Origin: Candidatus Nitrospira nitrosa
GTDB taxonomy: Bacteria > Nitrospirota > Nitrospiria > Nitrospirales > Nitrospiraceae
Length of the DNA: 64,000 bases
Direction of reading: 5' to 3'
NCBI RefSeq assembly: GCF_001458735.1
Contig: NZ_CZQA01000013.1
Location: 62,001 to 126,000, forward strand
The position numbers and the translations under genes are program-made. This document shows positions 38,223 through 55,569 of this stretch, piece by piece; the first letter of the stretch is position 1; each line of letters starts with the position of its first letter. Under the pieces are notes generated by a model. The model was not told the DNA's origin. It saw only the letters and a list, made by a program, of their open reading frames with translations, and did not search any database.

Positions 38223-39650
38223 CTAACGCTTTTCAGGATGGGGTTGTTGGGATTGCCACGAAGCTGATCGAATCATATTGCCCCATTCCGCTTTGGTGCC
38301 TCGGATCCACCGGATCAGCCCAATCAGCCTCCAGTAGGAATTGAGTTGCCGGTACCCAAAGTTCTCCACGACCGACACCAGAACGAGCTTGAGAAGATCC
38401 GAGGGTCGCTGGTACAGATGAAAGGTCATTTCTTCCATCAGCAGGGCACTCAGGGACAGGGTGACCCCGAGCCCAATGGCAACCCCCACACAGAGAAGCC
38501 AGACCTGTACGGAGACCAAGCCCAATCCCAGTCCAATCAGCAACAACACATAGCCCAGGATCTCAAAAGCCGGTCCAAACCACTCAAACACCGCCATAAA
38601 CGGAAAGGCCAGCCAGCCGACCGTGCCGCCTTTTGGATGGCAACAGAGTTCGAAGTGCCCTGCGAGGCTGTCGCAGAGTCCGCGTTGCCATCGGATACGC
38701 TGATTCCTGAGCGTGCGATAATCTTCCGGTACTTCAGTCCAACAGACAGGATCCGGCACATAGGTAATCCGATAGGGGAGATCATTGATCCGATGATAAT
38801 GATGGAGCCGCACCACGAGTTCCATATCTTCGCCGATCGTGGCCGTCCGGTAGCCTCCCACTTTCAATACCGCCTCCTTTCGAAATAACCCAAAGGCCCC
38901 TGAGATGATCAACATCGCATTCATCGGAGACCATCCTTGCCGACCGGATAAGAACGCGCGGAGGTATTCGACGGTTTGGAGAAGCGCCAACAGGCTCGAC
39001 GGTAGGCCCACCTGTTTCACGCGTCCTGCTTCAACGGAGCAGCCATTGGCGACACGGATCGTGCCCCCGCAGGCGACCGTACGGTGGTCGAGCAAGAACG
39101 GCTGCACCACGCGATAGAGACTATCCTGGGCCAAGACCGAATCCGCGTCGATACAGCAAAACAATGGATAGACCGACAGATTAATCCCAGCATTTAGTGA
39201 ATCGGCTTTCCCACCGTTTTCTTTGTCGATCACACGAACATTGGCGTAGATCGAGGAGTGATAGGTCGCTCGAATCGGCTGCGTCGGTAGATCGCGGCCA
39301 TATGCTTCAGGAAATGGTTTCAGTTCGAACGCTTGCCGCAGCACATGGATGGTATCGTCCTTCGAGCCGTCGTTGACAATGATGATTTCGAATTCGGGAT
39401 AGCGGAGCTGTAACAAAGATTGAATAGAACTCGCGATTGTGGCGGCTTCGTTATATGCTGGAACAATGATGCTAATTTGCGGCTCATACCCGGTGAACGC
39501 TTGCGGGAAATGCTCCCCCATTCGCTCTTCAAAATACTGGCGTAGCGAGAAAATAGAAATGGCATTGAGCAATAAGTACCCACCCGTCAATGTCACCAAG
39601 TACAGTAGAAATAATGCCTGGGATACACCGTAAATCGATTCCAACGTCAT
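38223..39650 (-). CDS. Family 2 glycosyltransferase (polysaccharide synthase-like)
   Basis: 475 residues from ATG 39650 (MTLESIYG). One N-terminal membrane helix, then a GT-A domain with ISIIVPAYNEA, the substrate aspartates in NDGSKDD and CIDADSVL, the general-base region TIGEDMEL, and the processivity motif QRIRWQRG; four C-terminal membrane helices follow. This is the layout of PgaC/IcaA or NodC-like processive enzymes. The divergent gene starts only 23 bp away and, with the next genes, points to an exopolysaccharide export locus. The sugar polymerised cannot be named. Confidence 0.88.
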   Translation of the reverse strand: MTLESIYGVSQALFLLYLVTLTGGYLLLNAISIFSLRQYFEERMGEHFPQAFTGYEPQISIIVPAYNEAATIASSIQSLLQLRYPEFEIIIVNDGSKDDTIHVLRQAFELKPFPEAYGRDLPTQPIRATYHSSIYANVRVIDKENGGKADSLNAGINLSVYPLFCCIDADSVLAQDSLYRVVQPFLLDHRTVACGGTIRVANGCSVEAGRVKQVGLPSSLLALLQTVEYLRAFLSGRQGWSPMNAMLIISGAFGLFRKEAVLKVGGYRTATIGEDMELVVRLHHYHRINDLPYRITYVPDPVCWTEVPEDYRTLRNQRIRWQRGLCDSLAGHFELCCHPKGGTVGWLAFPFMAVFEWFGPAFEILGYVLLLIGLGLGLVSVQVWLLCVGVAIGLGVTLSLSALLMEEMTFHLYQRPSDLLKLVLVSVVENFGYRQLNSYWRLIGLIRWIRGTKAEWGNMIRSASWQSQQPHPEKR

Positions 39651-39673
39651 CCGTGATTCGAGGCAGACTCGCA

Positions 39674-41290
39674 ATGCATTTCGGCTCGCTCCCTGAATTC
39701 TTACCATCGAGTTGGCTGCACCGACGGGCCGCCGCCTGGGTGATCCTCATCTTAGGATGGCTCTGGCCTTCTATGGCCTTCACCCAAGACTGGATGATCC
39801 CCGGGGAACGTTCGCTGACCGATGTCGAGGAGATCGAATTGGTGTACGCCGGCTCTCAGCCTATTCCCAAAATTATAGTGCGAGGGGGACAGACGGCCAA
39901 TTCATTTGTTCTTTCTTCCCATCGTCCCTCAGGAGACCGACTAGACTTGTTGCCTCAGGCCGGAGTTTCGCACCCTATTGAGGCTTGTCAAGCAACCTGG
40001 GGGAGTCTGGTCCCTCCGCTCCATGTGCGGATTGATCACCGGGGAAGTGCTCCTTGCGGAGTGATGTGGTCGCTGCAAGCGGCCGGCAAACATTTGGACG
40101 CGTTATCATTTCGCACGCTCCGCGTACGCGGGACAACCTCAAGCCCTGTACAAATCGAATTGGTCGATGCGCTGACAAAACCAGAACAGGCTCACGCCGT
40201 CACCGAACGGATTACTGGAAACTTCTCACTCGAGATACCACTGGCCTCCCTCGCGCAACAGGTCGACCTTCAACAGCTTGCTCAGGTTCGACTCGTAACC
40301 GACACTGATACTGACATGATCCTCGACGAACTCGCGTTCGTAGGACCATCGTCCGAACCTCATCCGACTCCAGCCATTGGGTTTTGGTATTGGGACTATC
40401 GCTCGGCGATACGAGATCCAGAGAGCATGGTAGCCGCTTGTCGACAGCAGCACTGCCGACGAATCTTGCTGCAACTGCCCGATCTGCGCGACGCGGACCA
40501 GATCTGGACGGCCTATGCCCAACTCTTCACTCTGGCAAAGGCGGCAGATATTGAACTCCTGGCGCTCGACGGAGCACCGGACATGATCGACCATGCCGCG
40601 CCCTTAATCGACAAGTTGAACCGGTTACTGGAGCTGATAGGAAACCATGGGCCTCCTGCTGTGCAGTTGGACATCGAACCATACCTATTAGAAGGCTTTC
40701 CCGATGACCACACGATTTTTGCTCGCTATCTAGACACCATCGATCGAGTAGCGACTGTCCTGCGAGGCCGAGCGAAACTCTCCGTCGTAATTCCCTTTTG
40801 GTTCTCCTCCACCATTCACGGGCAGCGGCCTCTCGCATTTTCGGTGATGGACCGGGTGGACGAAGTCGCCGTCATGAGTTATCGAACCGGTGTGGACGAA
40901 CTGATGACGATCAGTGACGACATTCTCCGCTACGGGGCACTGGTACATGTTCCGGTCTGGCTTGCCCTGGAAACCACGAACCTGCTCCCCGAACGACATA
41001 TCATCTTGAAACGAGAGCACCGGACGGCTTTGGCAGACGGCGTGCTCGATCCGATCCGACGAATATTGCGATTGGAGGCACCGACACAACAAGAACGACC
41101 AGAGCAAGACCGTATGTGGTTTCGCATCCATCATCAAATCACGGTTCGGCCCGAGCGCATTTCATTCTCAGGTCGTACAGAACACGACGTGCAGCGCACG
41201 ATTACGGATCTGTTCACTCGGATTCATCAATCAAGCTTTTCAGGACTCGTGATTCATGATCTGCCCGGCTACCTGTCGCTCACACGATAA
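39674..41290 (+). CDS. Secreted TIM-barrel glycosidase-like protein
   Basis: 538 residues from ATG 39674. Signal peptide ending near PSMAFTQ. Residues ~45-235 are beta-rich and carbohydrate-binding-like (EIPLASLAQQVDLQQLAQVR and LVTDTDTDMILDELAFVG resemble a family of sugar-binding folds). From ~residue 250 a TIM-barrel-like domain begins (GFWYWDYRSAI), with VQLDIEPYL, like the D-x-E catalytic strand of GH18-type enzymes, and VIPFWFSS. It may trim or process the polysaccharide made by the neighbouring synthase. The enzymatic reading is inference. The stop lies 1 nt before the next ATG. Confidence 0.6.
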   Translation: MHFGSLPEFLPSSWLHRRAAAWVILILGWLWPSMAFTQDWMIPGERSLTDVEEIELVYAGSQPIPKIIVRGGQTANSFVLSSHRPSGDRLDLLPQAGVSHPIEACQATWGSLVPPLHVRIDHRGSAPCGVMWSLQAAGKHLDALSFRTLRVRGTTSSPVQIELVDALTKPEQAHAVTERITGNFSLEIPLASLAQQVDLQQLAQVRLVTDTDTDMILDELAFVGPSSEPHPTPAIGFWYWDYRSAIRDPESMVAACRQQHCRRILLQLPDLRDADQIWTAYAQLFTLAKAADIELLALDGAPDMIDHAAPLIDKLNRLLELIGNHGPPAVQLDIEPYLLEGFPDDHTIFARYLDTIDRVATVLRGRAKLSVVIPFWFSSTIHGQRPLAFSVMDRVDEVAVMSYRTGVDELMTISDDILRYGALVHVPVWLALETTNLLPERHIILKREHRTALADGVLDPIRRILRLEAPTQQERPEQDRMWFRIHHQITVRPERISFSGRTEHDVQRTITDLFTRIHQSSFSGLVIHDLPGYLSLTR

Positions 41291-41291
41291 T

Positions 41292-43121
41292 ATGACGACC
41301 AACCCAGCCTTAAGACGATCAACTCCGAATCGTCCTCCTCTACCGATCATCTGGATCCTTGCTTCGATGCTCTGCGCGGTCGGATATCAACCGGTTCATG
41401 CTACTGATGGGTCATCATCACGCGCGTTGCTCGAGCAAGCCAAACAGCTTGAACAGGATCAGCAGTACCCTGCTGCTATTGAAATCTACCGCACCCTACT
41501 TCGACAAGACCCTGAGAATGACGACATTCGAGCCGCACTCGCCAGACTATTGTCGTGGCAGGGGTCTCATGCCGAGGCTGCACAGCTGTACCGGGAGATT
41601 ATCCGGCGTCATCCAACCGATCTCGACGTCCGAACCGCGTTGGCACGGGTGCTCTCATGGCAGACGGACCGGAAGGAAGCCCAACAACTCTATGAAGCGA
41701 TCTTACAGGAAGACCCTCGGCATGTTGACTCGCTTCAAGGATTGGGAGATCTCCTATTTTGGGAAGAACGTGTCGTAGATGCCCTCTCCTACTACGAAAG
41801 AGCATATGCCATTGGTCAGGATCCGGTGATCGCCGAGCGGATCGCTTCAATCAAACGTGCGCGCCCACCGTTAGACAATCCGCAGCCGACCCTGGCCCCT
41901 GCTTTTACTACAGAGGAGAGAGCGGAGCGCCTCGCACAGGCACAGGCCTGGGAACGGAGTGGCGCATACAGGCAAGCGATGAGTACGTACCAACAGATTC
42001 TGGTTGCTTCTCCGGCTGACGACGACACCCGTGGACACCTCGCGCGCGTTTTGGCACGAGACGGACAGTTAGATGAAGCGGCCTCGCTATACCGCGACAT
42101 TCTCACTCGCCATTCCTCCGATCTCGATGTCCAAATCGGTCTGGCACGTGTGCTGTCGTGGCAAAAACAGTATGCCCCAGCAATCCAGCAGTATCAGGCC
42201 GTGCTGGAACAGGACAGTACGAATCGAGAGGCCTTGCAGGGGTTAGCCGATACCTTGTTCTGGAGTGGAGCTACTCGGGAAGCCACGCATCAGTATGCGC
42301 GCCTCTATCAGTTGACCGGTGATGAAACGGTTGCCGCACGTATGCGAGACATCTCCGCCACACTCGACGCGTCACCACGGGCCCCACTTGGTCTACGCGA
42401 TTCAATCATTCGGTTACCATTCCGCGACTATCTCAAGGTCGGGTACGGTCAGTTTGCCTATTCGCGCGATATCCAAAATGAACGAGATGTCCTGTTCGAG
42501 GTCTCCAAATCCATCGGCGCACAAACCCTGATCGCCCGGGTCGAACCGATCAACCGATTCGGCTTTCATGACACTGTGTTGTCGGCGGAGGGATACAGCC
42601 CCTTGTGGCGTCGAGCCTGGGGGTACCTCGCTGCACAAGGGACGATCAATCCAGACTTTTCGCCCAAGTATTCGTTTGCGGGTGAAGTGACCCAGGGCCT
42701 CGGTCTTGTGCATCCCCTGCTCACGAGGCTCGAGGCCTCACTCGGCTATCGCTACCTGTCCTACAAAACGGATGATATTCACTTGCTCAGTCCGGGATTC
42801 ACCGTCTTCCTCCCCTTTAACTTCTGGCTCACAGAAAAACTGTATTACGTCCCGGAGACCGGCGCCATCACGCTTTCGTCACGGCTGACCTGGCGCCCCA
42901 CCAACCGCCTCCAAGTCTTCGTGTCGGGTTCGTTTGGAACCTCTGGCGAACGGATTGTCGCCACGCAAGATGTGACACGCGTGAGCAGTCGAACCATCCA
43001 AGGGGGAATTGTCTTGCCTGTGGTCGATCGGGTCTCTCTGGAAATCAGCGGATATGATGAAGACCGAGGAGCGCTGTACACCAGACGCGGAGCCAGTTTC
43101 AGCATCATCTACCACTGGTAA
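41292..43121 (+). CDS. TPR protein with YaiO-type outer-membrane barrel
   Basis: 609 residues from ATG 41292. Signal peptide to about residue 37 (VHA), then two sets of TPR repeats (about 40-190 and 215-350; e.g. YPAAIEIYRTLLRQDPENDD, LDVRTALARVLSWQ), and a C-terminal ~230-residue YaiO-family beta-barrel beginning LKVGYGQFAYSRDIQ and ending in an aromatic residue (IIYHW). TPR-plus-barrel proteins such as PgaA and AlgK/AlgE export polysaccharides. With the adjacent synthase and TIM-barrel protein, a role as secretion port is the natural inference. Confidence 0.82.
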   Translation: MTTNPALRRSTPNRPPLPIIWILASMLCAVGYQPVHATDGSSSRALLEQAKQLEQDQQYPAAIEIYRTLLRQDPENDDIRAALARLLSWQGSHAEAAQLYREIIRRHPTDLDVRTALARVLSWQTDRKEAQQLYEAILQEDPRHVDSLQGLGDLLFWEERVVDALSYYERAYAIGQDPVIAERIASIKRARPPLDNPQPTLAPAFTTEERAERLAQAQAWERSGAYRQAMSTYQQILVASPADDDTRGHLARVLARDGQLDEAASLYRDILTRHSSDLDVQIGLARVLSWQKQYAPAIQQYQAVLEQDSTNREALQGLADTLFWSGATREATHQYARLYQLTGDETVAARMRDISATLDASPRAPLGLRDSIIRLPFRDYLKVGYGQFAYSRDIQNERDVLFEVSKSIGAQTLIARVEPINRFGFHDTVLSAEGYSPLWRRAWGYLAAQGTINPDFSPKYSFAGEVTQGLGLVHPLLTRLEASLGYRYLSYKTDDIHLLSPGFTVFLPFNFWLTEKLYYVPETGAITLSSRLTWRPTNRLQVFVSGSFGTSGERIVATQDVTRVSSRTIQGGIVLPVVDRVSLEISGYDEDRGALYTRRGASFSIIYHW

Positions 43122-43132
43122 CGGCAACCGAT

Positions 43133-44239
43133 GTGAGAGAGCAGCGCGTGCTTGCCTTCATCGATACCGACCTTCCACTCGACCTCTGGTATATCAGTGC
43201 GGTCGTGCTGAGCTGCATTATTGTCTTGCTTCTTACCTCCATTCTTCTGTTCCGTCGACACCGCCTGGCGGCCCAACACCGACGACAGCGCGTCATCACC
43301 ACCTGGAAACCGTTGCTGGAACAGTATGTTCAAGAGCCCCTGCACACACTCCCCGCCCTGACACGTCGTGATCATGTGGTCTTCCTCTATCTCTGGAACG
43401 AGCACTATGAATCCATGGGAGACGCGATGATCGCACAGCTGGTCCATGTCGCCCAGAGAGTTGGGAGTCACCATCTGGCAAAAGAGCTGCTGCATTCACA
43501 CCAGCTGAGTCACCGGATGCTTGGAGTCGTCACATTGGGGCGATTACAGGACCAATCAGCCTGGACACCGATTAGCATCTTAGTGACTCATCACAATTCA
43601 TTCTTGGCCTTTAACGCAGCGCAAGCCCTGCTTCGTATCGATCCGAAGGCTGCACTCTCGCTGCTCTTACCCGTTCTTGGCCGACGAGCGGACTGGTCTC
43701 CACTCAAAATTGTCTCCATGCTACAGACAGTAGGACGGGACCTGGCATCTGAAGTCCTTGCACAAGCGGCCATTCAGGGAGATCCCGATATCAGCCCACG
43801 ACTGATCCGCTACCTGCCGGGGACGAAAAGTCAGCGCGGTCTGCCGATCCTTCGTCAATTCCTCCGAGATGAGGCCTGCTCCACCAACATGCTGTCTGCG
43901 AGTCTCTTCGTGTTCGGAGAGTTTCGTGATCCGGCAGATCTCCCGATAGTTCGGCAACACCTGACTCATGAGGCCTGGTATGTCCGAGTGCAGGCTGCAA
44001 CGGCACTGGGAAAGTTGGGAACCGTCGAGGATGAGGACCGGTTGATCGACTTGTTCAATGATGAGCACTGGTGGGTCCGCTATCGGGCGGGAGAAGCCTT
44101 GGTGAGCTTAGAGTCGATGACGGAGGAGAAACTGATGAAATTACAAGAATCGCTCACCTCACCTGAAGCACATGAAATCCTCGCTCCCATCCTGGCAAAA
44201 TTCAGGGCCCGTCGTGCTCCGATTGCGGTCAGGCCCTAG
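43133..44239 (+). CDS. Membrane-anchored HEAT-repeat protein
   Basis: 368 residues from GTG 43133 (a GTG at 43148 is also possible; ribosome-binding site weak). One transmembrane helix at about 18-42 (LWYISAVVLSCIIVLLL), then a helical repeat domain with HEAT/PBS-lyase-like units (WYVRVQAATALGKLGTVEDE, WWVRYRAGEALVSLES). Such proteins act as protein-binding scaffolds. It follows the TPR-barrel gene by 11 nt, in the same operon, so it may organise the polysaccharide machinery. A hairpin begins at its stop codon. Confidence 0.78.
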   Translation: MREQRVLAFIDTDLPLDLWYISAVVLSCIIVLLLTSILLFRRHRLAAQHRRQRVITTWKPLLEQYVQEPLHTLPALTRRDHVVFLYLWNEHYESMGDAMIAQLVHVAQRVGSHHLAKELLHSHQLSHRMLGVVTLGRLQDQSAWTPISILVTHHNSFLAFNAAQALLRIDPKAALSLLLPVLGRRADWSPLKIVSMLQTVGRDLASEVLAQAAIQGDPDISPRLIRYLPGTKSQRGLPILRQFLRDEACSTNMLSASLFVFGEFRDPADLPIVRQHLTHEAWYVRVQAATALGKLGTVEDEDRLIDLFNDEHWWVRYRAGEALVSLESMTEEKLMKLQESLTSPEAHEILAPILAKFRARRAPIAVRP

Positions 44240-44371: not shown

Positions 44372-44406
44372 TACATCCAGCCTGGGTTCCACCCAGGCTG
44401 GATGTA
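44372..44406. terminator. 16-bp perfect hairpin between convergent genes
   Basis: TACATCCAGCCTGGGT, 3-nt loop, and its exact complement. It lies 10 nt beyond the stop of the minus-strand gene ending at 44416. No clear T-tract on either side. The core CCAGCCTG recurs in the hairpin after the paralogous gene at 49342. Confidence 0.6.
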
Positions 44407-44415
44407 ATATGCGGT

Positions 44416-46464
44416 CTACTGCACAGGACCTGGATTTTTCTGCTTCGAAGTCAGCTGCTTTTTCCAGCTATTGCAGTCTTTGCCCTTGCAGTTCTGAACC
44501 CATTCCTGGACCCAGCCGTTATAGACGTTCGGAACAGCCAGGACGCCCTGTCCCCCCATGCCTGGATTACCAGTCACCGTGTCGTCCTGTACTGCCGAGG
44601 CCGCCCCAGCTAACAACACGCGTCCGACAATCGCGGCATCGCTCGGATCGCCATTCATATCGGGATCAGGATCCACGACGAGCATCACGTTGCTGAACTT
44701 ATTGGCGATATAGGCATAGTACCCGCCTCCTAGCTTGGCACCGTAATTCACACCGTGGCAGCCGGGATCACAAGGTAGCGTTGCCACCACTGTATCTGTT
44801 GTAGGCAAACCAGGCCTGGTATCCACGACCGTAATCGTGGCAGTCAGGGTATTGGCCGTGACCATGTTGGTTCCCTCCGGATTCACCGGCGTCTGAATAG
44901 GCAAAGCACCCACGAACGAACAATCAAGATTTGGAGTGCTTGTTGGGTTAGTTGAGCTATGGCAACCTTCTACTGGATTGTACTTTTCAATCAAATTAAT
45001 CTTCTTGATTTCTGAATTGCTGTTGCTGGCCATATTCATGACCGATATGGTGTTATCAAGAAAATTGCTCACGTAATACTTACTCGAATCCGGCATCATG
45101 CTCGTGGCAATTGGGACAGCACCCGTATTCGGTGTGGCCTCGATTGTGCCAGCCTTGAAATTATACACTGTCGATGTATTGACATTTTCGTTGGGAGTCA
45201 CCATCTCATCCCCTGTCGAACTCATCCAATGACCATGAGGGTGGGTGGCGTTAATAATGTCGGAGTTATCTACGGGTATACTTGTCATCGGAATATCACG
45301 AATAAATTGATTCGGACCCGCGCCATTTCCACCCGCCAATGCATTAAATTCTCGTACGTTATTACCACCATTCTGTGCCACATGCACATAATCGTTATTG
45401 GCCCTCGTCATCACGTGTGAGGGAGCGGGGCCTGCATTCAGTTCACGTATGAGCGCGCCAGTCTTTCTGTCAAACACCGCCAATCGCTCGTCGAACCATT
45501 GCGTCTGATAGATTACTTTTTGCTCTCTATCCGTCCACATGTTGTGGGGATGGTTCATATTGATCTCTGGAAGTGCCACCTTCTTCGTGAGTTTCCAGTC
45601 CGCTCCGTTGATGGCCGTCGCCGTACCGGGCTTTGCCTTCCCCCCTGTCAATTCAAACTGAGTATTAACCCAGATTTCTCCCACCCCTGCCGTTTTCGGA
45701 TTAAATAATTTATTTGCGGAATCTGTGAGATCGACGGTCCCAATCGAAAGCACCGCAGAGAGATCAGCCACAGGGATCTTGTTCCCATCCTTATCATACA
45801 CAATCACTGGCACAGCGGGGAAAGCTGGTGTCCACGTGCTCTTAGTGTAATCTTTCCAATTCCCTGGATCCGTGATGGTAAAGAAGGTGCGCAACAGGCG
45901 AACCGCTAAATCACTGAATGTCGGAACCGTAATGTTATTGACCAGCCTAATCTTTTTGCCGAGGTCCAATCCTTCAGGCGTATTGGGATCATCCACGATG
46001 ACACCTGCGAACATGTAGACGTGGATGTCACAGATGAAGACGTACAGGCCTGGCTCCGTCAACTTCACAGTGGCCACCCCTCCCGGTGCCGGGTGGAGGA
46101 AATCGATGGCCGCCTTGAACGGCATTCCATGTGGGTTTGTGTCATCGGATTTTAGAGGCCACAGCAAGCTCAGCGCCGTATGGATCGTGCTGGCTTCTCC
46201 GCTAAACGAGGGGAACCCCACCGTTTCTCCCGGGGCAATAACGGCGAGAGACCTCTGCTGAGCTCCCCCAATGGATGCTGGCACACACCCGAGTGATTTC
46301 GAGTTGGCCGTGTTTGAACAGGTAAAAAAGTTTCCAGGCCTGTCGCCAGCTTCGAATGAGACGACAGGATCATCGGGAGAAGGAGATTGGGCCTGGGCCA
46401 TGCCAGCTACGCCCAACCCCACCAGCATACTGAGTGCAGCCAATAAGAGATGTCGTATTTTCAT
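44416..46464 (-). CDS. Secreted cupredoxin / beta-propeller protein (copy 1)
   Basis: 682 residues from ATG 46464 (AGGAAGG upstream). Signal peptide ends near residue 26. Residues ~30-160 are a cupredoxin domain: H95, then C145-x2-H148-x2-M151, an amicyanin-like type 1 copper loop. The rest is a YVTN-type beta-propeller (HNMWTDREQKVIYQTQWFDE; THPHGHWMSS; many histidines). C565-x3-C569-H570 (CDPGCHG) near the C-terminus is a possible atypical haem or disulfide site. It shares the whole architecture with the protein at 49342-51177. The multicopper oxidase lies directly upstream (75 bp). Likely a periplasmic copper electron-transfer or redox protein. Confidence 0.8.
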   Translation of the reverse strand: MKIRHLLLAALSMLVGLGVAGMAQAQSPSPDDPVVSFEAGDRPGNFFTCSNTANSKSLGCVPASIGGAQQRSLAVIAPGETVGFPSFSGEASTIHTALSLLWPLKSDDTNPHGMPFKAAIDFLHPAPGGVATVKLTEPGLYVFICDIHVYMFAGVIVDDPNTPEGLDLGKKIRLVNNITVPTFSDLAVRLLRTFFTITDPGNWKDYTKSTWTPAFPAVPVIVYDKDGNKIPVADLSAVLSIGTVDLTDSANKLFNPKTAGVGEIWVNTQFELTGGKAKPGTATAINGADWKLTKKVALPEINMNHPHNMWTDREQKVIYQTQWFDERLAVFDRKTGALIRELNAGPAPSHVMTRANNDYVHVAQNGGNNVREFNALAGGNGAGPNQFIRDIPMTSIPVDNSDIINATHPHGHWMSSTGDEMVTPNENVNTSTVYNFKAGTIEATPNTGAVPIATSMMPDSSKYYVSNFLDNTISVMNMASNSNSEIKKINLIEKYNPVEGCHSSTNPTSTPNLDCSFVGALPIQTPVNPEGTNMVTANTLTATITVVDTRPGLPTTDTVVATLPCDPGCHGVNYGAKLGGGYYAYIANKFSNVMLVVDPDPDMNGDPSDAAIVGRVLLAGAASAVQDDTVTGNPGMGGQGVLAVPNVYNGWVQEWVQNCKGKDCNSWKKQLTSKQKNPGPVQ

Positions 46465-46538
46465 AGAGCCTTCCTTTAGGGTTTTGCCACGTGTGAACAG
46501 CAACTACTCACACATGGCCTTCGTTTCTATCAATTCTA

Positions 46539-48557
46539 CTAGTGAACGTGAAGCTCCGACATCATACCGAACGTGGCATGAGGGAGGATGTGGCAATGGA
46601 ACAGCCACCGCCCCAACCCTCCCCCTTTCGATTTTTTCGCAGTCGGTCGATCATCCAAGGAGACCCTAAACGTAAAGGTATAATTCGCAGGCACATCCAT
46701 GATGTCCCGAAACTCATGATACGGGAAGGTGTAGGTCGGTCCGGTTGTACCCGCTTGCGGGTTCAGGCTCTCCGGCTGAAACGAAAACCCGTGCAAATGA
46801 AACGGATGGTGCGCCCCCGTCGTATTAGTCACCGTCAGCTCCATCACATTGGAGAGCGCTGCATGACGGGCTGACTCAAGGTAAAAAGGATTGCCGCCGC
46901 TGGCCAGACCATCTTTACCTAGACCTGTGAAGTCTCTCGGCATCGGAACCCCGTCAATCGACGCCTGAAACGCACCGTTGTTCGCCCAGAACGTCAGCTG
47001 GATATCTTTATTCGTCGACCCAGCTTCGCCGTTGGAAGGGGTAAGGAGATTATCCGGTGCTGTACTGAGAACCTTAACCATCGCGTTCGATCCCAAATTC
47101 TCAAGCAGGTGGCTACCATTGGCAATGATATATGGAGTAGCCACACTACCATTAATTACCAAGTGCATCACCGGCACGGTCGGAGTCCAGGAGTATGTGG
47201 CTGCCACCCGCTCGAAATCCTCCGTCCAGAGAGTCAGGACTGAGCCGTCCGCTACGGTACCGCTAATGCTCGGAATCTTCGCCACCACATCCGCACGACT
47301 TGCAGGCGGGACCAAAATCTCGCCCTGCCCATACTTAAAATCAAACTCGCCAATCATACCCCCCTCAAGCACCACCCGATCGAGTAATCCTCCCTCTCCA
47401 CCGATTCGAAACAGGTTGACCTGCTCCCCACTGCTGGTCGTCAACCGGAGGCGCATGTAACGGACCGGCGAAGGATTCACAATTTGTAACCGCAATCCCT
47501 GGTCGGCCTTAACCTCAAGTGCATTTGTCAACACACTGGATGAAGAAGCAGCTGGGGCACTAGGACTCCCTCCCCTCGCATCCACCTTCACACCGTTGGT
47601 CAGGACCGTAAACCCTTCACTCATAGAACCAGTCAAACTCGGAGATTGAATGTTCGGAACATCTCCGGCAGTGAATGCCCCCCTTAAATTTCCATTTGCA
47701 TCAAGTGGATACGTTTCGCAGAGAATGAGCGGAGACTGAGTCAAAATATGATTTTGGTAGTTGATCGCCCACGCTTGAATGCCACTGACATGCGGCAGCA
47801 CCGTGTCATCAAATGTGGCCGGGTTGGTCCCCGCTCCAGGAGTGTTGCAGACCGTGATGTCGCTGAGCACCAGCGTCTTGGTTTGTTCTGCCGACGGGAT
47901 CACACCATTATTCCGAAGTTGCGCCTCATACCCCTGATTATCTTCAACAATGATCGATCCGTAGAGTCCTTTTGCCACTTGATTGGTCGACGAGTGGTGG
48001 TGCGGATGGTACCAAAAGATCCCCGGCCGGCTGACGATGAAATCGTAGACAAACTTACCCCCTTTGGGGGCCACTGCAGGTTGAGTCACTTCCGTGCCGT
48101 CACTGGCATTGTTCAATTCGATGCCATGCCAGTGAATACCTGACACATTCGCCTCTGGATCCAAACCTGACTTCTCGAGGTTATTCACAAAATTCACGAT
48201 GACCCGGTCTCCCACCTTGAGCCGAAACTCCGGACCGGGTATTCCAGGCGTCGTACAGTTACTAAGCAGCTTGTCTGAACAGCTCTTAAACGTCATCCCG
48301 TTCGCCATCACTGCCGGGCTGCCAGGCGAAGCGATATTGACAGTTGCCTCGTCTGCCACAATCCAGGTCTCGACGATGGTTGGATCACTATTCCCGTCTT
48401 TAACCTGTGGAACCTCATACGGCCCGACTCCCGTCGTGGCATGTACTGACTCGTTGCCAGCCATACACAACGTGAGCGCCACGGCAGCGACGATGCACGC
48501 TATCCAACCGCGGACGCTCATGACTGTCGCGCAATTACTTGATACACCTTTTATCAT
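46539..48557 (-). CDS. Multicopper oxidase
   Basis: 672 residues from ATG 48557, preceded by AGGGAGA. Signal peptide to about residue 40. All copper-binding motifs are in place: HWHGIEL at 142, WYHPHHH at about 182-188, HPFHLHGF at 584, and HCHILPHATFGM at 654-665, the last with the type 1 cysteine and axial methionine. Laccase/CotA/CueO-type three-domain fold. Substrate (metal, phenol or a partner cupredoxin) cannot be read. Its position between two cupredoxin-propeller paralogues suggests they exchange electrons with it. Confidence 0.9.
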   Translation of the reverse strand: MIKGVSSNCATVMSVRGWIACIVAAVALTLCMAGNESVHATTGVGPYEVPQVKDGNSDPTIVETWIVADEATVNIASPGSPAVMANGMTFKSCSDKLLSNCTTPGIPGPEFRLKVGDRVIVNFVNNLEKSGLDPEANVSGIHWHGIELNNASDGTEVTQPAVAPKGGKFVYDFIVSRPGIFWYHPHHHSSTNQVAKGLYGSIIVEDNQGYEAQLRNNGVIPSAEQTKTLVLSDITVCNTPGAGTNPATFDDTVLPHVSGIQAWAINYQNHILTQSPLILCETYPLDANGNLRGAFTAGDVPNIQSPSLTGSMSEGFTVLTNGVKVDARGGSPSAPAASSSSVLTNALEVKADQGLRLQIVNPSPVRYMRLRLTTSSGEQVNLFRIGGEGGLLDRVVLEGGMIGEFDFKYGQGEILVPPASRADVVAKIPSISGTVADGSVLTLWTEDFERVAATYSWTPTVPVMHLVINGSVATPYIIANGSHLLENLGSNAMVKVLSTAPDNLLTPSNGEAGSTNKDIQLTFWANNGAFQASIDGVPMPRDFTGLGKDGLASGGNPFYLESARHAALSNVMELTVTNTTGAHHPFHLHGFSFQPESLNPQAGTTGPTYTFPYHEFRDIMDVPANYTFTFRVSLDDRPTAKKSKGGGLGRWLFHCHILPHATFGMMSELHVH

Positions 48558-48601
48558 GATACATCTCCCTAATGTGATGACCATCGATCTACTTACACAC
48601 T

Positions 48602-49300
48602 GAAATGAATTCTTCCCTTCACATGACTCGGCTTTTCTATCTGCATCCCGGCCTACCTTAAAAAGTCACCATGAACTTCTCCCCCATACGCTCGACCTTC
48701 TTTTGAGGCACCCACCTCCGCTTCACCACTCCAACTACCCTCCCACACCGCAATCGAATCAACGACAAGACGCCCTCACTCTCTGTCCACCGCCTTATCC
48801 AATTTCGAAAGCGGTCACGCATACCACGTACGACTTCGCACAATCAATATTTCCGCCTAATTAATAATATGCAATACTTACTTTTCTCTTACATGCATCA
48901 TGCAAATTTCATTGTCCTCACAACCGTAGGGGGAATCATGCCCCATGGAGACCATCCTTAACCCTCAATTCACCATTGAGGAACACCACACCTCCTCGGC
49001 GCTTCTGAATCTGGCAAGCAAAATCTGTTCTCAATACCCTTGCGATGAAGTAGTGGGCAGAAGAGTGCCTCGTTTCCCTGCAAATATGTGATTTTCCCAC
49101 TCTACGTCCTGGTGAGACCTGATCACTTCATCCGTTTAGCGCTAGAATCTTTGATTATGTATCTGAACGGATTCAGTATCTAAAGAGATTCACTGGAGCC
49201 CCTCTTCTATTCAGGAGAGAGTCCCTTCTCAAGGAAAACGGTTTGCTGAACTTAAGATCGATGGCGGATGAGAAGCTGAGGGGATTGTAACGGTAGAGGG
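48602..49300. other. 699-bp non-coding stretch upstream of the multicopper oxidase
   Basis: No convincing gene. A 61-codon minus frame at 48658-48843 starts with TTG and is Arg/Trp-rich; not accepted. The part 48840-49000 is AT-rich with a GCATCATGC dyad near 48895. The direct-repeat element at 49156-49191 lies here. Confidence 0.45.
49156..49191 (-). promoter_or_regulatory. Putative regulatory element with two GTATCT repeats
   Basis: TATGTATCT, then GTATCTAAAGAGATTC, the two GTATCT starts being 17 nt apart (49159 and 49176). The same arrangement occurs at 51430-51465, upstream of the paralogous gene. Site type (promoter, operator) is open; it lies 600 nt before the multicopper oxidase ATG. 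Confidence 0.45.
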
Positions 49301-49333
49301 CTGTCCAGCCTGAGCCATACTCAGGCTGGACAG
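49301..49333. terminator. 14-bp perfect hairpin after cupredoxin-propeller copy 2
   Basis: CTGTCCAGCCTGAG, 5-nt loop, and exact complement, 9 nt beyond the stop of the gene at 49342-51177. Same CCAGCCTG core as the hairpin at 44372-44406. Confidence 0.6.
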
Positions 49334-49341
49334 ATGCATGC

Positions 49342-51177
49342 CTACTGAATCGGATTTCGCTGCGTGGGTGTCAACTGATTCTTCCATGTGTCCGGAAGGT
49401 TCTGCACCCACCCATTATAGACGACCGGAATCGTCAGAATGCCCTGTCCCCCCATGCCACGATTGTTCGTGATGGTATCGTCGGTGGCGGTGGCGCCGGT
49501 CGCAGTGAGCAGAATACGGCCGGCAATCTTCGCATCGTCCAGATTGCCGTTATTATCAGGATCTGGATCAACGATAATGAGACTGTTTGAGAACTTGCTC
49601 GAGACGTAGGCGTAGTACCCGCCGCCTTGCTTGGCCCCGTACTGCACGCCATGGCAGCCGGGGTCGCAGCCGAACATTTTAACAACTGTATCCGTTCTCG
49701 GATCGATGAGCAGGATCGTCCCTGTGAGCGTGTTCGCCGTCACCATACTCGTTCCATTGGGCGCGACTGGGGTTTGAATCGGCAACGCTCCGACCGGGCC
49801 GGTGATTACGCCGCTGATCGCGTTGTAGTTTACCAACAGATCGATCGTCCCAATCGGCAATTGTGCCGCAGTATCAATGATCGTGATCGTGCTATCGAGA
49901 AGACTCGCCACATAGGCCTTCTTTGAATCCGGCGTCATGCCCGTCGCAATTGGGAGATTACCAGTCTGCCGGATCGCGTCGATACGGTTATTCGCAAAGT
50001 TGTACTGGGTGCTGTTCGCCGTAAAGGCATTCGGCGTCAGCATCAACTTGCCGTCATGGCTCATCCAGTGGGCGTGAGGCGTGCCTGCTCCAATATTGAT
50101 GCGCCGCTGAACGCCGTTGGCCAATGGAGCCAGCTCCACCACCGAATCGTTGTTCGCTGAACCGTTCAACGCCACGTGGAGCTGATCAGTGTCGACCCGC
50201 GTCATCACATGGGAGGGGGATTCCCCGACCGAGATGTTATTTAAGAATTGGCCGGTCGTGCGGTTAAAGACCGTGAGCTTACTATCAAACCATTGCGTCT
50301 GATAAATCAGATTCTGATTTCGATCCGTCCACATGTTGTGGGGATTGTTCATGTTGATCTGAGGCAATGCCACCTTCCTGGTCGGCACCCAGGTTTGGCC
50401 GCTCACCGCAGTGGCTGTTCCCGGCTTGCTCTTTCCTCTGGTCTTTTCGAACTGTGTATCCACCCAGATTTCTCCAACCGCCTGCGTGGCTGGGTTGAAC
50501 AAGGCATCTTTGGTCTTGTCATTCTCTATCCCCGGTACCATTGTACTCAGGTAGGTATCTAGATTGACGACCGCCCCACCGGTAGCCCGAACATTCACGT
50601 TCGGATACGTGATACGCCAAGGGCCTGGAGCCGTATAGTCCAGCCAGTTTCCAGGATTGGTCGCAATAAAGAACGTGCGCAACAGTCTGGCCGCAAGATT
50701 GCTCGTCGTCGGCACCCCTACACCGGACGGGAAGGTGACCAATGAAATTTGTTCGCCCAGATCCAATCCCTGCGTGGCTAGATCATCCACGATCACCGCG
50801 CCGAACATGTATGGATGAATCTTACAGGTGAAGACATAGAGTCCCGGTGTATGGAGCACCACTTCGTCTGACCCCTTCCGCGGCGCCGTGTCGAACGGCA
50901 TGTTGATGGCACCGGTTGGAAAAATCAGACTGGTTCTGGTGTGAACGGTATTCGACTTGCCGGTAAATCGTACTTCGGTTCCCGGTGTGGCAACCGCCAT
51001 CGACTGAAAGCCTGCTACGGGTCCAGCTGCATTGCGAAACCACGCACCCGGCTCGTCAGTCAGTTCAAATTCGATCCGTGGATCGCCCGCCTGAGCCTGA
51101 TTCACCACTGAAGCGACCGTGGGAACGAAAGCGATGGCCAAACATGACCATACAAATACCATGGCCCTCTTGCTCAT
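49342..51177 (-). CDS. Secreted cupredoxin / beta-propeller protein (copy 2)
   Basis: 611 residues; ATG 51177 follows AGGAGGCAGAG. Signal peptide ends near AQAG (residue 31). The cupredoxin part has H79 and C118-x2-H121-x2-M124; the propeller part has the same landmarks as copy 1 (INMNNPHNMWTDRNQNLIYQ, PHAHWMSHDGKL, VDPDPDNNGN), and C504-x3-C508-H509. It is about 70 residues shorter than copy 1, mainly in insertions. Separated from the multicopper oxidase gene by ~785 bp. The duplication includes the 3' hairpin and possibly the upstream element. Confidence 0.82.
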   Translation of the reverse strand: MSKRAMVFVWSCLAIAFVPTVASVVNQAQAGDPRIEFELTDEPGAWFRNAAGPVAGFQSMAVATPGTEVRFTGKSNTVHTRTSLIFPTGAINMPFDTAPRKGSDEVVLHTPGLYVFTCKIHPYMFGAVIVDDLATQGLDLGEQISLVTFPSGVGVPTTSNLAARLLRTFFIATNPGNWLDYTAPGPWRITYPNVNVRATGGAVVNLDTYLSTMVPGIENDKTKDALFNPATQAVGEIWVDTQFEKTRGKSKPGTATAVSGQTWVPTRKVALPQINMNNPHNMWTDRNQNLIYQTQWFDSKLTVFNRTTGQFLNNISVGESPSHVMTRVDTDQLHVALNGSANNDSVVELAPLANGVQRRINIGAGTPHAHWMSHDGKLMLTPNAFTANSTQYNFANNRIDAIRQTGNLPIATGMTPDSKKAYVASLLDSTITIIDTAAQLPIGTIDLLVNYNAISGVITGPVGALPIQTPVAPNGTSMVTANTLTGTILLIDPRTDTVVKMFGCDPGCHGVQYGAKQGGGYYAYVSSKFSNSLIIVDPDPDNNGNLDDAKIAGRILLTATGATATDDTITNNRGMGGQGILTIPVVYNGWVQNLPDTWKNQLTPTQRNPIQ

Positions 51178-51429
51178 TCTCTGCCTCCTTAGATTGAGTG
51201 GGGTAGTTCATTACAAGACGGCAGCACTGTACCAGTTCAGTCTGTGGGCAAACGTCACATCGTATAAGAATTGACTAAGATTTGACCGTATCACTTGTCT
51301 ATAGATCCCAGGCTATTACCCATGCAAACCGTTTTTAGCGCGGATAGAGCTTGGTACTAATTACACACAATCTGATGACATTTCAGAATGAATATGGCCT
51401 GGTGATTGCCTCGCGCTGATTGCAACTCA

Positions 51430-51465
51430 TATGTATCCAATTTGATGCTGTATCTAAATGGATTC
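51430..51465 (-). promoter_or_regulatory. Putative regulatory element with two GTATC repeats (copy 2)
   Basis: TATGTATCC and GTATCTAAATGGATTC, starts 17 nt apart (51433 and 51450). The second block matches 49176-49191 at 14 of 16 positions. It lies about 255 nt before the ATG at 51177. The rest of 51178-51562 shows no gene. Confidence 0.45.
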
Positions 51466-52352: not shown

Positions 52353-53048
52353 TTATTTGACTGAGCTTGTCACTGGAGCATCAGACGCCTTCAGAAACAC
52401 AATATCCCCGTAATAGGCCACCGCTCGCTCTTTAGTGTTGTCGGTATCCGTCATGATGGCCACGTCGTTGCTCATCGGAGGCTCCTCAATCCAGGCGCCA
52501 AGTCTTTGTGACCCGCTCTCGACCACCACCATTATGACGAAATCCATGTAAGCATTATCGATGATCACGCCGATTGGAATATCTCAAAACAGGGCCTGGC
52601 CCGCCTTATACTTGAGTGTCTTTCCAACACTCACCTTATCAGGATCGTATTCAAACGTGGTGTAGCGTCTGGCCGGATAATCCTCTCTGTCTTTTCTGGT
52701 GGCATCGCTCTTCTGAAGCAAGTTCTCGACCTTCCACCGCCATCGTACGATTGGAAATTCCTTCAGATCGATTCTAACAGCTTTGGTCAGACCCGAAGCC
52801 GAGGCCTCGCTGATGGCCTTGACCATCGTGACACCGCTCTCAGTGATGACTTCGTACTTGGTCTGGGTCGGGATCTTCTTGAAGGTGAGCGGCTTCCAAC
52901 CCTCCGGCAGAACGGCTCCCATCGTCGAGACCGAAAACCTGCCGACCACTTCCGCCAGCGCCAGCTGAGCCCAGACTAGACAGGAGGCGTCGGCCATGGA
53001 GAGCGTTAACAGAATCAGTGCGACTCGGATAGTCTTCCGCATCAGCAT
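52353..53048 (-). pseudogene. DUF3047 family gene, frame-disrupted
   Basis: Two minus-strand pieces: 52584-53048 (signal peptide, then FSVSTMGAVLPEGWKPLTF, VRWRWKVENLLQKSD and YPARRYTTFEYDP) ending in TGA inside GQALF, and 52353-52568, in another frame, continuing AYMDFVIMVVVESGSQRLGAW and AIMTDTDNTKERAVAYYGDI. Together they make a near-complete DUF3047 protein apart from a short loss and frameshift at 52569-52585. The family consists of secreted proteins of unknown function. Unless the shift is a sequencing error, the gene is broken. Confidence 0.75.
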
Positions 53049-53057
53049 GCGGTGCCA

Positions 53058-54611
53058 TCATCGCCGCAACCAGGCAAACAGCTTGGTCAGAAGATTCTTC
53101 GTCCCCTGTGTAAAGTGCGCTTTCCTCCAAAGATTGACGACTTTCTTGTTCACTTCAGCCTGCGTGGGATAGGGATGGATCGTACCGGCGATCGTTTTTG
53201 CCCCGAATCCTGCCTTCATGACAACCGCAAATTCACTGATCAAGTCCCCCGCGTGACGTGCCACGATGGTCGCCCCAAGAATCTTGTCGGTCCCTTTTCG
53301 AATGTGCACCCGAGCAAACCCTTCCTCTTCCCCGTCCAGGATCGCCCGATCTACTTCGCTGAGGTTGTAGGTATAGGTTTCAACTTCGACCCGCTTCTCC
53401 TTGGCATCTTTTTCGTACATCCCGACATGAGCAATTTCCGGTTCGGTGAACGTACACCAGGGCATGTTCAAGGACTCGACATTGGCATAGCCTAAACCAA
53501 GAGGATGCGGGAACAAGGCGTTCTGAATGACGATCTGCGCCATGGCATCAGCCACATGGGTAAACTTGTAGCGCGAGCAGACATCACCCGCAGCAAAAAT
53601 TTTTGGATTCGTCGTTTGCAAGCGCCGATTCACCACAATTCCATTCCGATCGTACTCGACTCCTGCTGCTTCCAATCCAATCCGTTCCACATTCGGGGTT
53701 CGCCCGACCCCGAGCAGAATCTCGTCGACAATGACCGCGTGCTGCTGGGCATGCGACTCAACGGTCAGCCGTTTTCCTCCTTCGACCTTTTCTACCTGCA
53801 AACCCTTCCCGCAACAAAGAAGCTGAATTCCATCACGACGCATCTGCTGTTCGACAATCTCTGCGGCATCTCGGTCCTCGTTGGGCAGAATCCCGTGCGC
53901 CGTTTCAATCAAAGTGACGTGGCTTCCAAACCGTGCGAAGGCCTGCGCCAGCTCGCATCCGATCGGCCCCGCCCCAATGACTCCTAGGCGCTGCGGGAGC
54001 TGGGTGAGAGAAAAGACACTGTCATTCGTCAGATAGTCGACTCCCTGTAAGCCGGGCGTGGTAGGGATCGCCGCTCTGGCCCCTGTACAGACAGCGGCTC
54101 TTGCAAACGTGAGAACCCGATCCCCGGCTGAACCTTCCACTTGGATCGTATCAAAACCAAGAAAACGTCCGCTCCCGATGTACACATCGACCCCAAGGTT
54201 TGTGTAGCGCTGAGCAGAATCGTTCAGGCTGATGCGGGCCCGCAGTTTGCGCATGCGCGACATAACGGCCTCAAAGTCGTACGTCACCCCCGTGGGAATA
54301 TGGAGGCCAAACTCCGTCGCTTTTCTCAGATCCGCCCAAGCCTTAGCGGCACGAATCAGAGCTTTTGAGGGCACACACCCCACATTGAGACAATCCCCAC
54401 CCATCAGATGCTTTTCGATCAGCGCCACTTTGGCACCGAGACTTGCAGCGACCACGGCTGTAATCAGTCCGGCAGTTCCTGCTCCAACCACTACCATGTT
54501 GTACCGACCTGTCGGTTCAGGATTGACCCAATCGGCGGGATGCACATTGCTGACAAGCTGTTGATTCGACTCGTCGTATGGAAGAATCAACGGCTGATAG
54601 TGTTCACTCAT
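53058..54611 (-). CDS. Mercuric-reductase-like FAD-dependent disulfide oxidoreductase
   Basis: 517 residues from ATG 54611. An N-terminal ~35-residue lead precedes the FAD motif VVVGAGTAGLI; the redox pair is C74-x4-C79 (GGDCLNVGCVPSK); the NAD(P)H motif is GVIGAGPIGCELAQAF; the second FAD motif FAAGDVC; and the dimerisation domain holds the HPYPTQAE catalytic pair. It lacks the N-terminal HMA domain and C-terminal Cys pair of true mercuric reductases, so the substrate is unlikely to be mercury. The TVP38 gene lies 63 bp upstream; such pairs (or fusions) are common. Role unknown. Confidence 0.88.
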   Translation of the reverse strand: MSEHYQPLILPYDESNQQLVSNVHPADWVNPEPTGRYNMVVVGAGTAGLITAVVAASLGAKVALIEKHLMGGDCLNVGCVPSKALIRAAKAWADLRKATEFGLHIPTGVTYDFEAVMSRMRKLRARISLNDSAQRYTNLGVDVYIGSGRFLGFDTIQVEGSAGDRVLTFARAAVCTGARAAIPTTPGLQGVDYLTNDSVFSLTQLPQRLGVIGAGPIGCELAQAFARFGSHVTLIETAHGILPNEDRDAAEIVEQQMRRDGIQLLCCGKGLQVEKVEGGKRLTVESHAQQHAVIVDEILLGVGRTPNVERIGLEAAGVEYDRNGIVVNRRLQTTNPKIFAAGDVCSRYKFTHVADAMAQIVIQNALFPHPLGLGYANVESLNMPWCTFTEPEIAHVGMYEKDAKEKRVEVETYTYNLSEVDRAILDGEEEGFARVHIRKGTDKILGATIVARHAGDLISEFAVVMKAGFGAKTIAGTIHPYPTQAEVNKKVVNLWRKAHFTQGTKNLLTKLFAWLRR

Positions 54612-54674
54612 ATCCACGATGCCTGACAAAGGGCATGACACCATCACCTGGTATCCTTGGTTGCGTATAATCAA

Positions 54675-55427
54675 TCAAGAAGCTCTTCCTCCTACCGACT
54701 TTGCAGAAAACTGTTTATACACAACTGGGACCAGTGCCAGCAGTCCTAAGAGCACAAAGGCGCCGATGACATTGAGGGAGGCGATTTCTTTCAGTGAATT
54801 GATCGTCCCAAGTTGACGCCCTGCGTACGCGTACACAAACGAACCAGGAATGATGCCGATTGCTGTGGCAAGGATGTACGTTCCGACAGTGACGCGTGTG
54901 AGTCCGGATACCAGATTGACGACAAAGAAGGGAAAGAGCGGAATCAGCCGTAGGGTCAAGAGATAGCTGAACGCATTCTTCGCAAACCCCTCTTGGAACG
55001 GGCCAAGTCGAGCCCCAAACTTCTGCTCCACCGCATCACGCAAAACATATCGTGCAGTAAGAAAGGCCAGTGTTGCCCCTGTGGTTGCCCCCAGATTGAT
55101 AAACAGAGTCGCCCACCCCGCACCAAACACAAATCCACCGGCTAAGGTCAGAATCACTGCACCAGGAAGTGACAGACCTGTCACCAGGATATAGGTTCCG
55201 ATAAAGATCGCCACGGCAGCGGGAAAGTTAGCGTCCGTGAATGTCAGCAAGCTATCCCGGTTTTCTTTCAAGGCCGTTAAGGAAAGAAATTTCCCAAGAT
55301 CAAGATAGAAGAAGGCCCCAACGGCAAGCACCACCACAATTGCGATAGAGATCTTCCCTAAATTGGAATGGGCAGATTCGCGCTGATTCAAGGCTGGGGT
55401 TGTCATAGCGGCCTCGTGGCGTATCAT
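54675..55427 (-). CDS. TVP38/TMEM64 (DedA-like) membrane protein
   Basis: 250 residues from ATG 55427 behind GGAGGAGG. Six or so hydrophobic segments; the family core GGFVFGAGWATLFINLGATTGATLAFLTARY (read in parts) and LRLIPLFPFFVVNLVSGLT are clear. VTT-domain proteins act in lipid scrambling or small-molecule transport across membranes. It is followed by the flavoprotein gene, probably in one operon. The open frame further up to 55466 lacks a ribosome-binding site. Confidence 0.88.
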   Translation of the reverse strand: MIRHEAAMTTPALNQRESAHSNLGKISIAIVVVLAVGAFFYLDLGKFLSLTALKENRDSLLTFTDANFPAAVAIFIGTYILVTGLSLPGAVILTLAGGFVFGAGWATLFINLGATTGATLAFLTARYVLRDAVEQKFGARLGPFQEGFAKNAFSYLLTLRLIPLFPFFVVNLVSGLTRVTVGTYILATAIGIIPGSFVYAYAGRQLGTINSLKEIASLNVIGAFVLLGLLALVPVVYKQFSAKSVGGRAS

Positions 55428-55569
55428 GGGACCTCCTCCGCTGACTGTCAATGAAATAGGCGACACAGGGTGTTCGTTTCACCATGCTAAGAAACCTTAC
55501 AGAGTCAACTTCAAGAAATCGGTTGCCAGGCCGGATAAGATTTCCGTAGTCTAGCGTGAGGAGGCCAGC

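Follow-up and report, generated by a model that had tools for sequence, protein, structure and literature searches.

A multicopper oxidase and cupredoxin-propeller pair as a putative copper redox module in comammox Nitrospira, with a split counterpart in Nitrosomonadaceae

The window analyzed here is a 64,000-nucleotide stretch of the genome of Candidatus Nitrospira nitrosa, which carries amoA and is therefore that of a complete ammonia oxidizer (comammox) of the genus Nitrospira. Three genes lie on its minus strand in the order A - MCO - B, with gene ends at 44,416–51,177, slightly inside the interval of 44,372–51,465 from which an earlier note on this DNA had started. Gene A (49,342–51,177, 611 amino acids) and gene B (44,416–46,464, 682 amino acids) each encode a signal peptide followed by an N-terminal type-1 cupredoxin and a seven-bladed propeller, and the gene between them (46,539–48,557) encodes a three-domain multicopper oxidase (MCO) of 672 amino acids. 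A and B are paralogues with 52–54% identity, and a third paralogue, C, is encoded on another contig of the same genome. The composition that the earlier note had read from the sequence, an MCO between two cupredoxin-propeller paralogues, is present in all its parts, and this observation lies far beyond chance.

Each of the three genes starts with an ATG behind a good ribosome-binding site, namely AAGGAGG for A (start at 51,177), GGGAG for the MCO (start at 48,557, an alternative at 48,584 being less likely) and AAAGGAAGG for B (start at 46,464). Since only 74 bp separate the MCO stop from the B start, these two genes probably share one transcript. A is probably a unit of its own, given the 784 bp between it and the MCO and the strong stem-loop directly 3′ of its stop codon (49,301–49,333, minus strand), a perfect 14-bp stem without a T run (MFE −30.9 kcal/mol, folding z = −4.7) that probably ends or protects the A transcript. 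On one side of the locus (38,223–44,239) are genes for a glycosyltransferase, a 566-amino-acid protein without a Pfam match, a TPR and YaiO barrel protein and a HEAT protein, a cluster that also occurs beside propeller genes in other Nitrospira (L036, L063, L064, L120, L163). On the other side, a DUF3047 gene (52,584–53,048) is probably truncated, encoding 154 amino acids compared with about 256 in its relatives (L036, L055), and is followed by genes for a pyridine nucleotide-disulphide oxidoreductase and an adjoining VTT-domain membrane protein (53,058–55,466), which are kept in the same two loci.

The AlphaFold model of B (mean pLDDT 84, pTM 0.88) places the cupredoxin at residues 35–157 (45,994–46,362, minus strand) and the propeller, with seven blades, at residues 257–647 (44,524–45,696, minus strand). 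The C-x2-H-x2-M copper loop pointed out earlier is real, reading CDIHVYM in B and CKIHPYM in A, and is joined by an upstream histidine: the type-1 ligands H95, C145, H148 and M151 (B numbering) are invariant in all 118 aligned relatives, and the complete His, Cys, His, Met set sits on a cupredoxin fold formed by the strands of residues 35–157 of the model. Secretion and a YVTN-like propeller had also been claimed for A and B, and both agree with the signal peptides, the blades of the B model and the YVTN-like matches.

Conservation extends into the hub of the propeller, where H307, H350, H410, H412, Q524, H570, C565, C569, K577, K589 and Y582 are conserved in all 118 proteins or nearly so, and H361 is conserved outside the fusion clade described below. 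According to the strand list of the B model, H307, H350, H410/H412, Q524 and H570 stand at the starts of the innermost strands of different blades, which would place them at one mouth of the channel. A metal may be bound by the His/Cys cluster at this mouth (H307, H350, H410, H412, Q524, H570, C565 and C569), although histidines at the innermost-strand starts are found in ordinary YVTN propellers too and a metal there is not proven.

The oxidase is complete, as the earlier note had stated, with motifs for all four coppers (HWHG, HPHHH, HPFHLHG and HCHILPHATFGMM). Its HxH pairs in the first and last domains and its HCHxxxHxxxxM motif are those of a three-domain MCO. The ligands H151/H153, H193/H195, H593/H596/H598, H663-C664-H665, H669 and M674 are invariant in 16 MCO orthologues, and the MCO was also aligned to laccase 4f7k.

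In Nitrospira, the MCO gene lies directly upstream of B on the same strand in 17 of 17 B loci, each from a different genome (the window, L034–L036, L038, L039 and L054–L064), and conversely all 12 MCO orthologues found in a search of 59 genomes stand beside B. The pair is kept amid changing flanks of at least three kinds, namely glycosyltransferase/TPR, sensor-kinase/ABC and type I secretion clusters. MCO and B are therefore one unit; shared ancestry accounts for part of this pairing within a single genus. No MCO lies near three basal B-like genes, which belong to a palsa Nitrospira (L102), a Nitrospirae MAG (L158) and a Methylomirabilota MAG (L104). An apparent MCO-B fusion, a 1317-amino-acid frame in L062 (= L095):756–4709, was rejected as an assembly gap: the frame runs from a truncated MCO into the start of B through a codon that contains an N.

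The paralogues A and C behave differently from B. The order A - MCO - B is intact only in the window and in L064, and degraded A fragments upstream of two further MCO-B pairs (L036:12693–13382 and L055:6473–6874) show that it was formerly more widespread. Apart from these two loci and two relics, A occurs without an adjacent MCO, none of the ammonia-oxidizer A loci has an MCO beside A, and no locus has one beside C. The propeller protein can thus act without the MCO. One of the two findings that the earlier note had named as speaking against its reading, paralogues that mostly lack an MCO, is thus seen for A and C, though not for B.

A relative of the cupredoxin-propeller is present in 84 of 120 Nitrosomonadaceae genomes, and in 65 of the 120 it takes a long form of 895–983 amino acids (about 930). 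The N-terminal 290 residues of this long form are homologous to two-domain laccases of the PDB (E down to 4e-24), so that it is a fusion of a laccase half with a cupredoxin-propeller. The gene directly before it encodes a partner of about 340 amino acids that is also related to two-domain laccases (E = 5e-21), as in L174:7962–11751. In the 16 loci fetched (L168–L183), the copper ligands are divided in a complementary way. All 16 partners keep SxHxHGVH and YHDHN, the two HxH motifs of domain 1, and lack both the HCH and the cysteine of domain 2. All 16 fusions keep the domain-2 ligands with the type-1 set (HTFHxHAHRW and HCHxxxHxxxxM), and HxH is absent from domain 1 of the fusion in 15 of them, the sixteenth being truncated there. 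The two halves also occur together: partner and fusion are found in 65 of the 120 genomes, partner and an interrupted or contig-edge fusion in 4, and neither in 51, giving 69 partners against 65 fusions with neither half occurring alone. Twelve of the 16 fetched loci also carry a gene for a LuxR-type response regulator by the pair. The fusion was not found in Nitrospira, where the best laccase match among 79 genomes reached 51 bits.

Known two-domain laccases form their trinuclear site where domain 1 of a subunit meets domain 2 of its neighbor. These enzymes (e.g., PDB 8aip and 9ix9) are homotrimers in which each polypeptide carries the full set of ligands, whereas none of the 16 Nitrosomonadaceae loci has all ligands in a single protein; the halves, both of which are homologous to these laccases, together supply all eight histidines of the trinuclear site as well as the type-1 ligands, divided over two proteins of which one is fused to a cupredoxin-propeller. 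Combined with the known geometry, the complementary ligand loss points to an obligate hetero-oligomer. With a mean pLDDT of 52, the AlphaFold model of the fusion is of too low quality for a fold search. Judged from the sequences, the fusion and the split site are strong evidence for a physical association in Nitrosomonadaceae. For the MCO and B of the window, strict gene pairing and homology suggest that the two may associate as well. Considering fusion, split ligands and strict co-occurrence together, oxidase and cupredoxin-propeller very probably belong to one redox complex.

Taken together, MCO and B probably make up a copper redox module outside the cytoplasm, in which electrons run from the cupredoxin-propeller through the oxidase to O2. 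The type-1 copper of the B cupredoxin would pass electrons to the type-1 copper of the MCO, which would reduce O2 to water at its trinuclear site, and the propeller, with its probable metal site at one end of the channel, would be the part that binds the substrate or a partner. The paralogue A might fill this role together with different partners. The Nitrosomonadaceae would build the module as a two-subunit enzyme made of the laccase half of about 340 amino acids and the fusion of about 930 amino acids, with a trinuclear site that forms only at their interface. The substrate is most likely a reduced metal ion or a small redox molecule; the gene surroundings of MCO-B give no clue to it. Such a redox relay is the most economical reading of the function. 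The locus appears to hold an undescribed copper redox module built from known domain families, of which ammonia oxidizers have an unusual split-laccase version: the earlier note had known of no named system of this composition, none was found in the libraries searched, and the literature covered by our search contains no description of the architecture.

Nitrifiers are highly dependent on copper, and no role is known for several of their copper proteins. MCO and the cupredoxin-propeller are a named, testable pair in comammox Nitrospira, with a two-subunit counterpart in cultivated Nitrosomonas. If the proposal is true, this counterpart would be an oxidase that has its trinuclear copper site only where two different proteins touch, and the path of electrons from the cupredoxin-propeller to the oxidase would be fixed by the fusion. 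In phage-infected N. europaea, two multicopper oxidase genes are strongly induced (PMC13356812); from the available part of that report, no link between them and the partner/fusion pair could be drawn.

A bolder version of the module, which we regard as speculative, makes the hub itself catalytic. The hub would then be a new copper, or mixed His/Cys metal, center that oxidizes the substrate and hands the electrons to the type-1 copper and onward to the MCO, and in ammonia oxidizers the oxidase would be an obligate two-subunit laccase with a split trinuclear site and one subunit covalently joined to the propeller.

Alternatively, the MCO might be an ordinary periplasmic copper-detoxifying oxidase of the CueO/CopA type, with B as a copper-loaded accessory or store, so that the pair would protect the cell against Cu(I). 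CueO and CopA (PcoA) share with the MCO the three-domain architecture and the same copper motifs and are among its best profile matches, and cuprous oxidases are common in nitrifiers (PMC13374858). However, the MCO scores 78.1 bits, far below the curated cut-offs of 525 for CueO (NF008205) and 478.95 for CopA (TIGR01480), and membership in either family was rejected. Its neighbor is a cupredoxin-propeller rather than a set of copper-resistance genes, the genes around the pair in the window include neither a copper pump nor CopB, CopC or a copper regulator, and the fused, interface-split laccase of ammonia oxidizers is hard to reconcile with simple protection. We therefore think detoxification unlikely.

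Improbable, too, is a role of the propeller as a non-catalytic scaffold that binds the cell surface or matrix and presents the oxidase extracellularly. Propellers of the YVTN type are typical of surface-layer proteins, and in a structure search with the B propeller the nearest matches were YVTN and lactonase propellers, the best being the surface-layer protein 1l0q (Z 38, 22% identity) ahead of lactonases (Z 32–36). Further, C and two of the MCO-B pairs have RTX-like proteins and type I secretion genes as neighbors, and in Nitrosomonas A is followed by a small RTX-like protein. Yet 1l0q has a propeller in tandem with PKD domains, lacks a cupredoxin and is not known to bind copper, and a scaffold would explain neither the invariance of the type-1 copper ligands nor why every subfamily strictly keeps the His, Cys, Lys and Tyr residues of the hub.

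Library profiles match A and B weakly, through YVTN repeats, the lactonase-type (clade III) N2O reductase L-NosZ (15–32 bits) and hydrazine synthase beta (23–33 bits); PHROG families gave no match. These matches raise the quite improbable alternative that the propeller proteins themselves turn over N2O or NO, at a NosZ-like copper cluster of the hub that the cupredoxin feeds or drains of electrons: like L-NosZ (NF052460), A and B combine a seven-bladed lactonase-like propeller and a cupredoxin in one secreted protein, have histidines at the innermost-strand starts, including a PHxH motif, and overlap NosZ in fold (5i5j, Z 30), but they have fewer hub histidines, score 15.3 (B), 32.5 (A) and 29.2 bits (Nitrosomonas A) against a cut-off of 700, and carry an N-terminal cupredoxin with a type-1 site instead of the C-terminal CuA domain, which in the L-NosZ loci L074, L075, L077 and L078 lies at the C end with C-x3-C. 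In their genomes NosD scores at most 36 bits, compared with 74–83 in L-NosZ carriers, all under the cut-off. The pairing with an oxidase that reduces O2 points to an oxidative role. NosZ membership was thus rejected by score, domain order and the type of copper site among the models tested, and a lactonase-like propeller with a cupredoxin is not enough to annotate a nitrous-oxide reductase.

Hydrazine synthase beta (NF052340; PDB 5c2v chain B) is likewise a periplasmic seven-bladed propeller from a nitrogen-cycle organism and matches B with Z 29.8, but it has no cupredoxin, and the profile scores of A (23.3 bits) and Nitrosomonas A (32.9 bits) fall short of the cut-off of 560. A Z of about 30 is common to unrelated propellers, and kinship with NosZ or hydrazine synthase beta on that ground was set aside.

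The earlier note's interpretation is partly supported overall: the locus is a copper redox locus in which oxidase and cupredoxin-propeller are paired, but the nitrogen-oxidizing role that the note had also considered is not supported, since presence does not follow amoA either in Nitrospira (counts of presence against amoA 22/12/11/14, p = 0.18) or in Nitrosomonadaceae (50/17/34/19, p = 0.23), a test weakened by the frequent lack of amoA from draft genomes of ammonia oxidizers. The whole family is also absent from some genomes with several amoA copies (G300, G320 and G337). Therefore, the module would be an accessory rather than a missing core step of ammonia oxidation.

In the maximum-likelihood tree, A, B, C and the fusion clade are separate, and two divergent B genes (L036, L064) sit on a long branch with unsure placement. 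Orthologues of A with 60–66% identity are found in Nitrosomonas and Nitrosospira; in the scan of named genomes they occurred in Nitrosomonas (oligotropha, ureae, communis, supralitoralis and others) and Nitrosospira multiformis, with scattered cases in Rokubacteria, Chloroflexi, Acidobacteria and other MAGs. The A groups of Nitrospira and Nitrosomonas are close neighbors in the tree, which suggests transfer between the two groups. An A gene in a Nitrososphaera MAG (L106) may be a binning error, and a locus labeled Nitrosospira (L109) has propeller genes identical to those of the Nitrospira genome G057. C (L003 / L046:10077–12170) is a probable lipoprotein (VAGC) and is surrounded by genes for RTX-like repeat proteins and type I secretion, a setting similar to that of the MCO-B pairs in L059 and L090. 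Within about 3 kb on either side of Nitrosomonas A (L110, L119, L133 and others) are genes for DUF6502, DUF5666, an outer-membrane protein and a small RTX-like protein, and DUF5666 and an outer-membrane protein are also encoded beside Nitrospira A (L105, L145, L157).
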